Assembly: GCF_000969905.1 (NCBI RefSeq)
Contig: NZ_CP009520.1
Span: forward strand, 1,922,001 to 1,986,000
Reading direction: 5' to 3'
Length of the DNA stretch: 64,000 bases
DNA from: Methanosarcina vacuolata Z-761
Lineage (GTDB): Archaea > Halobacteriota > Methanosarcinia > Methanosarcinales > Methanosarcinaceae
Part shown: one piece after another, positions 7,646-53,815 of the stretch
Position numbering within the stretch: position 1 is the stretch's first letter
Layout of the letters: every line of letters starts with the position of its first letter
Program-made: the position numbers and the translations under genes
Notes under the pieces: model-generated
Told to the model about the DNA's origin: nothing
The model's database searches: none
What the model saw: the letters and a program-made list of their open reading frames with translations, nothing else

Positions 7646-8020
7646 ATGACAGATTGTGATCTTTGCGGAAAAGCGATCCCGGCCGTAATTCCTGTCCGGG
7701 TTTTCCGCTCCCGCCTCAAATTCGCCTATCCTGAGGGTGTCTGGAAAGGGCTCTGTGAGACCTGCCTGGATTCCTCCCAGGAGACCTATTTAAGCATCGA
7801 CAAAAACGAAATCTCCTGCAGGCGAAACAAATGCGTCCTGTGCGGTAAAAAAGGCAGGGTTTACCCTGTGGAAATTCAGATTCCCGATTTTTCAAAAGGA
7901 GTTATAAGAAAAAAGGTAAATGTCTGCACAAAATGCCTGGATTCTATCAATGAGACTTATATCAGGTTTAAAGGAGAGCAGATTGAGGGTTCGGTTTGTG
8001 AACACGGGCATGAACACTGA
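7646..8020 (+). CDS. fpoO: F420H2 dehydrogenase accessory subunit FpoO
   Basis: A protein of 124 residues without membrane helices, found as the last gene of fpo operons. It has ten cysteines: C4/C7, C37/C40, C58, C63/C66, C94/C97 and C118, arranged largely as CxxC pairs that suggest an iron-sulfur or zinc site; its exact role is not established. The ATG at 7646 has GGAGA a few bases upstream. A hairpin follows the stop at once. A second, full-length copy with all ten cysteines lies at 14802-15179. Confidence 0.93.
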   Translation: MTDCDLCGKAIPAVIPVRVFRSRLKFAYPEGVWKGLCETCLDSSQETYLSIDKNEISCRRNKCVLCGKKGRVYPVEIQIPDFSKGVIRKKVNVCTKCLDSINETYIRFKGEQIEGSVCEHGHEH

Positions 8021-9575: not shown

Positions 9576-10785
9576 GTGTCGAGTCAATCTTCAATTGTCG
9601 GATAAAGACATGATAATTTTATCCTTGCATCATCTGTTGTGAATTGCCAGTTAACCTTTGAATTTTTGTTGTTTCTGTAATTTTGCCATGCCAATACTTC
9701 TTTTCTAACAAGCTCGATGTTATCCATTCTTCTTTTTAAACATTGACCTGAAAGCACGTTCAACTCAATCTCTGCTATGTTCAACCAACTTCCATGTTTT
9801 GGTGTGTACACAAACTCAAACCTATCCCACAGTGCCTTTGCTTTAGCTGGTGGAAATGCTTCATAGAGAGATCCAGGGACATGAGTATTTGATTGTCCAT
9901 TATCAGCGTAATTTTATTTGCATTTTCACGTTGAAGTGCGATTTTTTCCCGAAAATACGCCCAATCTTGCTTGGTTTTTCTTTCAGTAATATTTACCATT
10001 CGTTTTCCTGCTAACGGTTCACAGGCAAGAAATATATTGCACACTCCACAACGTTTGTATTCGTAATCATATCTGGCTGTTTTTCCAGATGAACAGGGGA
10101 TAGGAATTATGGTTTCTGCAATCAGTTGTTTTGGAGATTCGTCCATACATATGACAGGATTTAACGGATCAAATGGACGTTTATAAACGTCCAGAACCAT
10201 TTCCATATTTGCAACAAAACTACTGTTCTGTTCAGGAGGAATTACCCATTCTTTCTTTTGCCAGGGTTTAATTTCGTTTTTTTAATATATGACGTATTGT
10301 TTCGTGAGAAATGCTTTCGATATAGCCAAGCTCTATAACTTTATCAGCTAACAACCTCAAAGACCATCTTGCAAAACCTTCAGGAGGTTCACTGCAACTC
10401 AATGCAACTAAATGGGCTTCAAAATCACCATCAACTTTTTTAGTATAAATCCGATTTCTGTTTTTTCCATTAAGGGCAATTTCAAGACCGTCTTCAACAA
10501 AGCGCCTTTTTACACGATCAATTTTTCTCATACTGATGTTCAGGATACGGGAGATTTCTTCGTTGGTTGAATGGTTGACATTACATTCACCTTTATCGCA
10601 ATTGAGTAAGATTAGAGCATTGAGAATTTTTTGTGAATTTTGTTTACCCTTTGAGATAAGTTCACAAAGATCTTTGCGTTCGTCTTCAGTGAGTGTTACA
10701 GTATATCTTTTCATAAGTAATCCTAAAGATTACTTATGAAAAAATACAAGAAATACATTACGACCGTTTAGGTTTGACTCGACAC
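9576..10785 (-). mobile_element. IS630-type insertion sequence, degenerate
   Basis: The 1210-bp element has perfect inverted ends GTGTCGAGTCAA (9576-9587) and TTGACTCGACAC (10774-10785). TA flanks both ends, as expected from the TA target duplication of the IS630/Tc1 group. Its only gene is a transposase on the minus strand that is broken twice. Confidence 0.88.
9584..10714 (-). pseudogene. IS630-family transposase, two frameshifts
   Basis: The minus-strand gene starts at 10714 (MKRYTVTLTEDERKDL) with an N-terminal helix-turn-helix region. Its first frame ends at 10268. The continuation (KPWQKKEWVIPPEQ, then CMDESPKQL with the first catalytic Asp) is in the +1 frame after an A-run near 10280, so a base is missing. 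A second shift near 9895, within the MDN catalytic segment, moves the rest into a third frame (YTPKHGSWLNIAEIEL), which ends at 9584 inside the terminal repeat. Joined, the pieces cover the whole DDE transposase. With two shifts it is probably dead, though slippage at the A-run cannot be excluded. Confidence 0.88.
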
Positions 10786-14043: not shown

Positions 14044-14537
14044 AACCCAAATTAAAAAACAAGAAAAATATCAAGACTAAAGGATAGTGGTGGGTCATTG
14101 ATCAAATCTGACAAAGGGCCCACACACCCTATTTTGCAGAGTTGAGAATCCATACATATATATTATTTTTAATAAATTATTGTCACTATCTAATCAGCAT
14201 GAAAGTATTTTCAACTACTTTCAGATTTCTGAAAGGATGTTCAGGTCTAACCGTGAAGAAGTTGAAGGCATCCTTAAAGCTGGAGATCAGGTAAAAGTCG
14301 TTTTTACGGACAAAGTAAAGTATGAAAATGAGATCTCTTAAGGAATGGCAAGTTTTGAAGGAGCAATTTAATAACAGTGATTGAAAAGGGAAGAAAAAGG
14401 GATACAACGAAATAATAAGTGTGATTTAAAACTTATTTTTTAATGCACAAGTGCATTTTAGTCTAAAATGCGAGTTTGAGTCACCAGCATATAATTTATT
14501 TTTTCATTGACTTTTATATATAACTCAACTACCTTTT
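14044..14537. other. Gap after peptidase with a possible 34-codon ORF
   Basis: ATG at 14237 (after GAAAGG) to TAA at 14339-14341 would encode 34 residues containing ILKAGDQVKVVFTDKVKYE. It looks more coding-like than chance but is short and unidentified, perhaps a remnant. A GCATGAAAGT...CTTTCA motif at 14198 recurs at 15241, downstream of the fpoO paralog. Nothing else is apparent. Confidence 0.35.
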
Positions 14538-14744
14538 TTACTGCAAGTTGAAAACTATCCTTTCTCCTTTTGTAAGTTTGCTGGAAAGATAAACACCTAT
14601 ATCAATATCGCTTAGCGGTCCTTCCGTTCCCTCTGCTGTCGAACCAAAGAGATATGCAAGTTCTACATATTCCTTTTTATTAAAAAATTCAGGAAGCAAG
14701 ATACACAGAATTTCTTTCCCTATCTCGTGAATTTTAAGACCCAT
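14538..14744 (-). pseudogene. Truncated MNT-type nucleotidyltransferase
   Basis: The 68 residues begin MGLKIHEIGKEIL and reach GSTAEGTEGPLSDIDIGVYL, the GSxxxG...DxD active-site segment of minimal nucleotidyltransferases (MntA-type, often the antitoxin partner of HEPN proteins). The frame stops soon after, at residue 68, while intact relatives continue for roughly another 50-70 residues. No HEPN gene is adjacent. I read it as the 5' part of a lost two-gene module; its start faces away from the fpoO paralog. Confidence 0.7.
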
Positions 14745-14801
14745 TGTATTTTCTCTATGTCCTGTTCTTTCAAATACGTTATGTTGTAAGAATGGATATA
14801 C

Positions 14802-15179
14802 ATGATAGGTTGTGCTCTTTGCAGGCTCACAATTCCAATAGTTATTCCTGTCCGGGTTTTCCGTTCCCGCCTCAAATTCGCCTATTCTGAGGGTATCTGG
14901 AAAGGGCTATGTGATACCTGCCTGGATTCCTCCCAGGAGACCTATTTAAGCATCGACAAAAACGAAATCTCCTGCAGGAGAAACAAATGCGTTTTGTGCG
15001 GTAAAAAAGGCAGGGTTTACCCTGTGGAAATCCAGATTCCTGATTTTTCAACAGGAGTTATAAAAAGAAAGGTAAATGTCTGCACAAAATGCCTGGATTC
15101 TATCAATGAGACTTATATAAGGTTTAAAGGGGAACAGATTGAGGGTTCGGCTTGTGAACACGGGCATGGGCATTTGTAA
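14802..15179 (+). CDS. FpoO paralog outside the fpo operon
   Basis: A protein of 125 residues that aligns end to end with FpoO at 7646. The first 15 residues differ, but from IPVRVFRSRLKFAY onward the DNA is nearly the same, with scattered substitutions. All ten cysteines of FpoO keep their positions (4, 7, 37, 40, 58, 63, 66, 94, 97, 118), so selection has likely kept it functional. No other fpo gene is near. It is followed by a hairpin like that of fpoO. It could supply extra FpoO, replace it under some condition, or serve another partner. Confidence 0.85.
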   Translation: MIGCALCRLTIPIVIPVRVFRSRLKFAYSEGIWKGLCDTCLDSSQETYLSIDKNEISCRRNKCVLCGKKGRVYPVEIQIPDFSTGVIKRKVNVCTKCLDSINETYIRFKGEQIEGSACEHGHGHL

Positions 15180-15203
15180 GTTCATGAATATTGAGTTTTG
15201 AGT

Positions 15204-15224
15204 AAAGCTGCAGTTTGCGGCTTT
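15204..15224 (+). terminator. Hairpin after fpoO paralog
   Basis: AAAGCTGC at 15204-15211 pairs fully (one T-G pair) with GCGGCTTT at 15217-15224 around AGTTT, then a T-rich run. Compared with the fpoO hairpin, an A-T pair has become G-C and a mismatch is repaired. Confidence 0.65.
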
Positions 15225-15257
15225 ATTTCTTTTCTTATTAGCATGAAAGTTCTTTCA

Positions 15258-15305
15258 AGTACTTTCATTTCTTTGTGCCTGTGATTAGAAGAATTTCATG
15301 TGCGT
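15258..15305. repeat. Dispersed 47-bp repeat, copy 1
   Basis: The segment starting AGTACTTTCATTTCTTTGTG resembles 26067-26114 closely. Its nature is unknown. It is part of the 373-base gap between the fpoO paralog and the next gene, where nothing else was recognised. Confidence 0.55.
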
Positions 15306-20166: not shown

Positions 20167-21640
20167 TTTTCAATTCCTCCTGATATATACTACAATAATT
20201 TATTGGTTCTGTTCTCTAATACTATACTTTTTAAAGTAATACTCATAAATTGTAAGTATCTATATACATATAGTCCTATTTTTACCATCTAACTACTTAC
20301 CGAGTAGTAATATACATAGATTTTTAGTATATAGAAGTATTTGTAATAATAAATCATATATTTCATAAAAAATAATAAAACTTGCTATTAAATAGAGTGC
20401 TATTTTATTAATATGAAAATATACAAGTTGATCCCAAAAATCAAAGATTTTTTTAAAATATAGAACTTTGGAGAATCAATCAAGCTTCTAATCAGAAAAG
20501 TAATTCTAAAACTCTCTCTTTTTGAGAACAAAGTTAGTTTGGATAATCTCATTAGATATTTACTAAAAATTAAATCTATAGCATTCTCAATAACTCGCTT
20601 TCCGCAGAAAAATTTTATATTTAATAATCTTTACAGATATCGATTTTCAATCAAACATGGATTTATTAAACTTTTATACAGAAGGTAAAAGCAACTCTTT
20701 TGGAGTCGGTTAAGATACGATTCTTCAAAAATATGTTATTTTTGTTGCTGATTTTGTAATCTTATTTTGACAGCACCCACTAATTAATACTGAATATTTC
20801 TCTTATTTTTACCCAAGTTGGCTTAACAAGTCCTATAAATTTCTAAAAATTTGTTATATATTCTACATAATTCCATTAATTTTTGCTACAATCAAGTTAT
20901 TGATCTGATAAAAATTCGCAAAAATATATATTTTTATCAAGGCCGGTTTACTTTTCCCCATTTTGGTCGGATTACTTTTCCCCATTTTGGCCTGATTACT
21001 TTTCCCCATTTTGGCCTGATTACTTTTCTCCATATTTTGATATAAATTTTACCCAATTTTTGTATCCTCAAATTTTATGGATAAAAGTAAATTTCATGTA
21101 TTTGCTGAAAATTTAAAAATTTGACTAAGTCTAGAAAACAACCTCATGCGATGTATTAAACTGTATAACTGTATTCTAAAATTGTTGCATATTTTTCGAG
21201 TTAGAAAATTTTCAATTGAATTTGAAGAGGACACCTTATTTTTTATTTAACTGTAAAAGTTAGGTTGTAAACCTAAAAATATAAATTTGGATGAGTAGAT
21301 GGTTGCAGTAGTCATTTCGAGATTAATAGATTCCTCAACCGAATCTAAATGATAAGTAACTATATAGTATATTTAGAAATCAATATATCATCCTTTATTC
21401 ACCAAATGTGATTAAAAGATTAAACTATTGGTATCTGTTTTAAAAATGCTATCCGAAGAAAATATTTATTTTCAAAAAAATACTGCGTATCCTGGGCAGT
21501 AAGTAGAAACAGAAAAATTTGCTCAGTAAGTAGAAACAGAAAAATTTGCTAATTTTGTCTCATTTCGTTTTCGAAATTGAATGAGTTGTGCCCTGAGAAC
21601 GTGTCTAAAAACTAAAAAAGGAAAGAGTCTTTCGCCTCAG
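20167..21640. other. Long AT-rich gap with repeats
   Basis: Nearly 1.5 kb without a convincing gene. It contains a segment at 20656-20696 shared with 52662-52703, the 24-bp tandem repeat at 20948-21043, and, from about 21356, the downstream flank shared with the second GH16-like gene. An open frame across the 24-bp repeat (FPHFGLIT repeats) reflects the unit length being a multiple of three. Confidence 0.65.
20948..21043. repeat. Tandem repeat, 24-bp unit, four copies
   Basis: Unit TTACTTTTCCCCATTTTGG plus five bases; starts at 20948, 20972, 20996 and 21020. The last copy is diverged. Confidence 0.9.
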
Positions 21641-22300
21641 TTAAGATGGCACATAACTAAAGTCAGATAAAACCATCTCTGCATTCTGTCCATTTATTGG
21701 CGCTAAATGATTCATAAGCCACATCTGCATCGCAACTCCACCTTCTACATGCGGAATGCTTGTCTGGTCTGTACAGTTCCAGTCAGATATGACAGTTCCA
21801 TTAGAAAGCTTTGCAGTAAAGTGGACATACGTTGGCTCCCAATCAAAACTGTATGTTACGTCTGTAGCGTTCTGGTAAGGAGAGTCATAAGTTATTGCAC
21901 TCTGGTATGCATTTGGCTGGGCACTATAACTAAGTCTGTCACTGCATATCCAGCCCCACTGAGTAGCTTCAATATCTATCTCATTGGCATCGTTATGGCG
22001 GAAAAACATAGCAGCTACAATATTCGGATCGAGATTCAGTATTGGTGATGAAACCGTCCACTTGTATACACCATAGCTATAGTCAGTGGATGTTGTGTCA
22101 ACTTCTGTTGAATACCAGATATCTCCGACTTTCTGGATTGTAAGGTGTAGTTTCTGGTTTTCATCAATCCAAACATTATTGCTGGAACTGCTCCAGTAGT
22201 TACCACCAGGATTACCAGTTCCACTTCTTACCCACCACTCTTCACCACACCAGTTTAGATAAGTTTCTGCATCAGCAACATTTGTAATCATAAGCAAGCC
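21356..22300. repeat. Segmental duplication, copy A
   Basis: This stretch (GH16-like gene body and about 280 bp downstream of it) closely matches 52887-53815. Differences are mainly point changes plus a 27-bp tandem duplication (unit containing AGTAAGTAGAAACAGAAAAA) at 21499-21552 that copy B lacks. The signal-peptide coding end differs more strongly, so similarity fades near 22300. Confidence 0.85.
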
Positions 22301-22342
22301 TAACATACTTGACATTATGATTTGAGTATATTTATTCCCCAT
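21641..22342 (-). CDS. Small secreted GH16-like protein, copy A
   Basis: A protein of 233 residues with a signal peptide (cleavage near VADA-E, residue 25) and one concanavalin-like jelly-roll domain. EIDIE at residues 121-125 followed by ATQWG fits the GH16 catalytic ExDxxE type pattern (E121, D123, E125), and WEPTYVHFTAKLSNGTVI near the end is typical of the fold. It likely acts outside the cell on a beta-glucan-like polymer, but the substrate is unknown. The mature part differs from copy B (53148-53858) at roughly eight of 208 residues, while the signal peptides differ widely. Confidence 0.82.
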   Translation of the reverse strand: MGNKYTQIIMSSMLGLLMITNVADAETYLNWCGEEWWVRSGTGNPGGNYWSSSSNNVWIDENQKLHLTIQKVGDIWYSTEVDTTSTDYSYGVYKWTVSSPILNLDPNIVAAMFFRHNDANEIDIEATQWGWICSDRLSYSAQPNAYQSAITYDSPYQNATDVTYSFDWEPTYVHFTAKLSNGTVISDWNCTDQTSIPHVEGGVAMQMWLMNHLAPINGQNAEMVLSDFSYVPS

Positions 22343-52443: not shown

Positions 52444-53147
52444 TTTTATCAGGTCCTGTTATTAGTAGCTATTATCAATAAGGTTTCTGTTATTCATGTT
52501 TGTTCGTAGAAGTCATATCATTCATAGCTATTCGAAAAGACCCTATCGCGTCGAATTTTTTTGATAAACTTTTTTTTCACCTTTTTTCTAAAAAAATTTG
52601 AAAAATATTGAGGGAATTGACGCAACTTGTCATGATTACTCACTTAAACAAAGATGCATGAATGCGGATTTATTGAACTTTTATGCAGAAGGTAAAAGCA
52701 ACTGTAGTCACGCCTGTAATTGTTGCAACAAAAAACTTCATTGTACCTCATTGGGCAGTTTCATTATTTAGCCTCGTGACTATGTATCGTGTATTTAGAA
52801 ACCGTGACTATATGTCGTGTATTTAGAAACCGTGACTATATGTCGTGTATTTAGAAACCGTGACTATATGTCGTGTATTTAGAAACCGTGACTATATATC
52901 GTGTACTTAGAAACCAATATATCATCCTTTATTCACCAAATATGATTAAAAGATTAAATTATTGGGATCTGTTTTAAAAATGCTAGCTGGAAAAAGTATT
53001 TATTTTCAAAAAATACTGCGCATCCTGGGCAGTAAGTAGAAACAGAAAAATTTGCTAATTTTGTCTCATTTTGTTTTTGAAATTGGAAGAGTTATGCCCT
53101 GAGAGCCGTATCTAAAAATTAAAAAAGGAAAGAGGCTTTCGCCTCAG
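52444..53147. other. Gap with shared repeats and VNTR
   Basis: No gene. 52610-52661 resembles 54421-54473; 52662-52703 resembles 20656-20696; the 28-bp tandem repeat is at 52775-52914; the rest is the duplicated flank of the GH16-like gene. Confidence 0.7.
52775..52914. repeat. Tandem repeat, 28-bp unit, five copies
   Basis: CGTGACTATATGTCGTGTAT begins units at 52775, 52803, 52831, 52859 and 52887. Copy A of the duplication (near 21356) keeps only one diverged unit. Confidence 0.95.
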
Positions 53148-53815
53148 TTAAGATGGCACATAACTAAAGTTAGATAAAACCATCTCTGCATTCTGTCCAT
53201 TTATTGGCGCTAAATGACTCATAAGCCACATCTGCATCGCAACTCCGCCTTCTACATGCGGAATGCTTGTCTGATCTGTACAGTTCCAGTCAGATATGAC
53301 AGCTCCGTTAGAAAGCTTTGCAGTAAAGTGGACATACGTTGGCTCCCAATCAAAACTGTATGTTACGTCTGCAGCGTTCTGGTAAGGAGAGTCATAAGTT
53401 ATCGCACTCTGGTATGCATTTGGCTGGACACTATAACTAAGTCTGTCACTGTATATCCAGCCCCACTGAGTAGCTTCAATATCTATCTCATTGGTATCGT
53501 TATGGCGGAAAAACATAGCAGCTACAATATTCGGATCGAGATTCAGTATTGGTGATGAAACCGTCCACTTGTATACACCATAGCTATAGTCAGTGGATGT
53601 TGTGTCAACTTCTGTTGAATACCAGATATCTCCGACTTTCTGGATTGTAAGGTGTAGTTTCTGGTTTTCATCAATCCAAACATTATTGCTGGAACTGCTC
53701 CAGTAGTTACCACCAGGATTACCAGTTCCACTTCTTACCCACCACTCCTTACCACACCAATTTAAATAGGTGTCTGCAGCAGCGGTGTTTGCAATCAAAA
53801 GCAAGCCTAATGTAC
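52887..53815. repeat. Segmental duplication, copy B
   Basis: Matches 21356-22300 over the GH16-like gene body and its downstream flank. It starts in the last unit of the 28-bp repeat and fades in the signal-peptide coding end. Confidence 0.85.

Follow-up and report, generated by a model that had tools for sequence, protein, structure and literature searches.

The second fpoO open reading frame (ORF) in the genome of Methanosarcina vacuolata Z-761 is a chimera and not a plain duplicate of the operon gene. This mosaic was very probably produced by ectopic gene conversion of an fpoO relic by live fpoO. The ORF is named copy B and the genome G000, and all positions are those of the window, the 64-kb stretch of G000 that was analysed.

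The fpoO gene proper is located at 7646–8020 on the plus strand, directly after fpoN, as the last gene of the fpo operon. It encodes 124 amino acids, matches Pfam family FpoO (PF10621) with E = 2.5e-49 and is the likely donor of the conversion tract. Copy B is located at 14802–15179 on the plus strand, 6.8 kb downstream of true fpoO and outside the operon, and encodes 125 amino acids. The interval between the two holds transposase remnants, a lipoprotein-like gene and the gene of a PKD-repeat protein. Two adjoining ORFs in this interval (9781–10714, minus strand) resemble broken transposase pieces; a domain scan of the second ORF only showed helix-turn-helix domains. Copy B matched PF10621 over its whole length (profile 1–108 of 1–108), with E = 3.7e-43 and 146.7 bits against a gathering cut-off of 25.2. 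Cysteines 4, 7, 37, 40, 58, 63, 66, 94, 97 and 118 occupied identical positions in copy B and fpoO. A second full-length fpoO with all ten cysteines, away from the operon, had been claimed in the first-pass annotation, and this was confirmed. The four CxxC motifs (4/7, 37/40, 63/66 and 94/97) were all present in copy B. Their eight cysteines were kept in 21 of 21 Methanosarcina fpoO genes and C58 in 20 of 21; C118 was found in only 7 of 21 and is thus not a family feature.

The AlphaFold model of copy B had a mean pLDDT of 85.9. The second CxxC of each pair was placed near the start of a helix (38–50 and 95–119), an arrangement that in the model appears to resemble treble-clef metal sites. If made, the copy B protein would be FpoO-like with two CxxC-CxxC metal sites. 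A PDB sequence search with FpoO gave no match and a PDB fold search with the model of copy B gave no significant match, so no known structure was available for locating the metal sites.

Copy B was compared with its own fpoO at the DNA level. Identity was 26 of 42 nucleotides in codons 1–14 and 94.6% in codons 15–118. The first 14 codons (14802–14843, plus strand) were identical to the relic at 36 of 42 nucleotides, and they derive from this old copy rather than from fpoO. Sites at which fpoO and the relic of genome G023 differ were diagnostic. Copy B agreed with the relic at 12 of 14 such sites in codons 1–14; after codon 14, it agreed with fpoO at 15 of 17 sites and with the relic at 2 of 17 (Fisher p 5e-5). 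The switch from relic to fpoO occurred at 14843/14846. Both fpoO-like exceptions in codons 1–14 lay around the start codon, and the ATG of copy B may accordingly have arisen as a point change or through a small patch.

The conversion tract from fpoO extends over 14844–15239 on the plus strand and contains codon 15 to the stop codon, the 3′ tail and the hairpin. Its boundaries are approximate: the 5′ end lies between 14843 and 14846, and the 3′ end lies at about 15239, where matches to the fpoO genes of other species stop. In the tree of the body, copy B clustered with its own fpoO (UFBoot 100). As in a gene-converted paralogue, one breakpoint was found, the body was nearer to its own paralogue than to the positional orthologues, and the recipient locus was in positional orthology with other species. 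The relic-to-fpoO switch, the clade of the body with its own fpoO and the tract end near 15239 form the signature of ectopic conversion from fpoO to the relic. Grouping of the G000 and G023 copy B bodies gave a marginal AU test (p 0.054) on only 137 shared sites. This pair took the place of a constraint that also put the distant copy of G045 in the B clade, which had made the AU test too strong. A recent duplication or gene conversion had been suggested earlier for the second copy. The mosaic and the UFBoot value agreed with conversion; a recent duplication did not agree with the old locus, which is positionally common to three to four other species.

Extra fpoO copies were searched for in 31 Methanosarcina genomes. 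Pieces were common across the genus, mostly 1–12 kb downstream of fpoO. A type truncated at about codon 15, termed copy A, was found in G002, G016, G007 and G014. Further pieces were found in G022, G004, G040 and G045, some of them far off or on other contigs. The paralogue search proposed in the first-pass annotation thus showed widespread downstream copies, but no second full-length intact copy in the other genomes searched. The annotation had regarded presence only in this strain, with a relaxed substitution pattern, as an argument against its proposal, and at the species level the restriction in presence was observed. Four fpoO-like copies were present within 12 kb in G045 (G045:C33:16949–29183).

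The locus of copy B is old. Window positions 14555–14913 cover a truncated divergent MNT gene together with the beginning of copy B. This stretch aligned at 87–91% with a single locus each in G002, G016 and G023, and at lower identity in G045. The MNT gene, a truncated nucleotidyltransferase (14538–14744, minus strand; PF18765/PF01909), is divergent from copy B. Homology to the relatives begins at 14555; over 238 nt, identity was 95% with G002 and G023, and with G045 it was 84%. The gene marks the positional orthology of the copy B locus. The MNT frame is longer in G045 and G002; the break in the window adjoins the rearrangement that brought the PKD-protein region alongside. The upstream 250 nt and codons 1–14 of copy B matched a positional orthologue that is broken in three related genomes. 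The relics of G002, G016 and G023 have ATT for the start ATG and contain stops; all three share one 85-nt frameshifting deletion, bounded by CTGTG repeats (offsets 107 and 192). As a deletion between short direct repeats, it may possibly have originated independently in other lineages. In the distant relative G045, copy B was found at the same place with a full body, no deletion and TGA at the Cys94 codon.

A species tree was built from fpoH, I, L, M and N. The branching order was (G000,(G040,G041)), then (G002,G016), then (G022,G023), with UFBoot 100, and G000 nested among the relic carriers. Since relic carriers are on both sides of G000, parsimony suggests that the ancestor of G000 also had a relic, probably broken in the same way. 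The B locus was absent from G040 and G041, the two closest species, which leaves no direct view of the state before conversion. The following history is proposed. An old fpoO duplicate beside the divergent MNT gene would have decayed to a relic before G000 and its relatives diverged, through loss of the start codon and the 85-nt deletion between the CTGTG direct repeats. In the G000 lineage, fpoO would have overwritten this relic from about codon 15 through the 3′ hairpin, and the overwriting would have restored the open frame and the cysteines. Codons 1–14 and all upstream sequence would have remained relic-derived, and the in-frame ATG would be due to point mutation or to conversion of a very short patch. 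The donor could be an fpoO allele of an unsampled close relative.

The 3′ end of copy B is better preserved than that of its likely donor. Copy B retains a 3′ tail lost from G000 fpoO, and the transfer probably took place before this loss. By folding energy, the terminator-like hairpin of copy B (15200–15228, plus strand) was strong, with −15.0 kcal/mol and z −3.5; the hairpin behind G000 fpoO was eroded, with −5.2 kcal/mol and z 0.3. The earlier claim of near-identity from about codon 15 through the downstream hairpin was therefore correct for the coding part and incorrect for the hairpin.

The 5′ side was degraded. In the alignments, the leader at 14777–14801 (plus strand) had TAAGAATGG in place of the TAAGGAG Shine-Dalgarno sequence of the operon. 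Copy B stands outside the fpo operon and without its Shine-Dalgarno sequence, and in this it departs from an operon-encoded subunit of F420H2 dehydrogenase. No convincing promoter was found upstream of copy B; the bacterial promoter scan was uninformative for an archaeon. The only notable TATA-like word was at 14513, about 290 nt upstream of copy B, and was not conserved in G040. Expression of copy B at a useful level would be more unlikely than likely.

The high identity to its own fpoO between codon 15 and the hairpin could also be produced by a plain recent duplication of fpoO and its 3′ end into the place of copy B. However, codons 1–14 and the upstream flank are those of the orthologous relic locus, and an insertion exactly in register with an fpoO relic is not credible without homology. 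The dS between the copies was 0.16 versus 0.20–0.22 to the nearest species, near that between species, and such a duplication is highly improbable. Copy B might also never have been a pseudogene in the G000 lineage, if an ancestral intact second gene underwent concerted evolution with fpoO, with independent losses elsewhere. Copy B is older than the sampled species, as the full body in G045 indicates, and concerted evolution alone gives the same tree. Against this, the same deletion junction and the missing ATG occur on either side of G000 in the species tree, in G023 and in G002/G016, and four genus-invariant residues are broken in the N-terminus of copy B. Continuous integrity of copy B is accordingly quite improbable, and conversion of a broken relic is the preferred explanation.

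The conversion history is compatible with the proposal of the first-pass annotation, which concerns function, that copy B serves as an alternative FpoO subunit. Purifying selection would maintain copy B, conversion would homogenise it, and the subunit would be swapped into F420H2 dehydrogenase under some condition. The intact ORF, the complete CxxC cysteines and the strong hairpin are consistent with such use. In the codon model, the copy B branch had an omega of 0.28, with p 0.82 against the rest of the tree and p = 0.046 against omega 1. The pairwise dN/dS between copy B and fpoO was 0.18. The low omega could instead reflect the donor fpoO evolving under selection before the transfer. Unambiguous parsimony changes were 4 non-synonymous and 3 synonymous in copy B, and 0 and 2 in fpoO. 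So few non-synonymous changes were obtained with P = 0.29 in the neutral simulation, which is compatible with neutrality. The simulated neutral chance of no stop and no CxxC cysteine loss was 0.57 with 7 changes and 0.28 with 15, so retention of the cysteines is expected by chance. Copy B also broke 3 of 19 order-invariant positions (D3G, G8R and P29S), and the operon FpoO proteins broke 0–1. These positions were defined by 27 FpoO proteins of the order; they are not part of the Pfam definition and were taken as a sign of intact function. Copy B resembles operon FpoO (PF10621) in family, length and CxxC pattern, but differs in standing outside the operon and in breaking 6 of 42 genus-invariant positions (T2, D3, D5, G8, P29 and K84), compared with 0–3 elsewhere. 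Four of these are in the N-terminus, where no constraint was visible. P29S, E38D and K84T postdate the conversion. The degraded Shine-Dalgarno sequence, the lack of a clear promoter and the restriction of an intact full-length second copy to G000 among the genomes searched also argue against a working subunit. The claim of the first-pass annotation that copy B is under selection was thus favoured by omega, but not by the ratio of changes or by the three broken order-invariant residues. It is doubtful that the copy B protein has a function, and a role as an alternative subunit is unlikely to the same degree.

The copies of other genomes provide a comparison. G014 is a genome which we take to be M. 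acetivorans C2A. By position, its copy A (L039; G014:C1:1780873–1781088) is fpoO2 (MA1509, MA_RS25205). A nearby additional FpoO with undefined role was described under this name in a 2026 paper (PMC12918732). The copy was colinear with copy A of G002 over 2.8 kb, and its body was nearest to its own fpoO (93.1%; alternative rejected, AU p 6e-6), so the same overwriting logic applies as for copy B. Like copy B, fpoO2 lies within a few kb of the fpo operon, on its downstream side, and has a body overwritten by its own fpoO. Unlike the full-length copy B, it is at another position, of the copy A type, and is truncated at both ends: about the first 11–14 residues are missing, including C4/C7, and it stops after residue 82, without C94/C97. 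Concerted evolution by gene conversion has been reported for mtrA-1 and mtrA-2 in Methanococcales and Methanomicrobiales (PMC4632066). In both cases, duplicated genes of methanogenesis are homogenised by conversion; however, both mtrA genes are conserved in one operon, whereas the recipient in G000 would be a relic that stands apart from the operon, with an event specific to one lineage.

A full-length paralogue near an operon, with every cysteine in place, can be a relic that its parent gene has renewed, and high identity and motif retention are therefore not evidence of function. M. acetivorans fpoO2 is placed among partial fpoO copies that form a family across the genus and have been repeatedly overwritten, and its role thereby becomes a testable question. 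It is conceivable, though improbable, that the conversion-mended copy B is expressed from its new start, so that part of the F420H2 dehydrogenase pool contains a second FpoO that differs at the N-terminus; the recurrent downstream copies, including fpoO2, would then be a standing stock for such events.

Further minor observations were made in G000. A dispersed palindromic repeat, GCATGAAAGTNNTTTCAANTACTTTCA, is located at 15241–15267, immediately beyond the tract on its 3′ side, with a second copy at 14197–14223; it had 40 genome sites at ≤2 mismatches, compared with 0 for the reversed control. Two window segments, 21361–21899 and 52895–53406, lie 31.5 kb from each other and share about 88–96% identity; they include part of the gene of a secreted 233-aa protein (21641–22342), which had no Pfam match, and its flank. 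Over its first 10 kb, the second contig of G000 was 98.9% identical to the plasmid of Methanosarcina sp. Kolksee, and G000 probably belongs to that lineage or to a very close one. A third, tiny fpoO relic covering residues 105–125 (L114:3266–3322; G000:C2:2725262–2725324) is located about 790 kb away.
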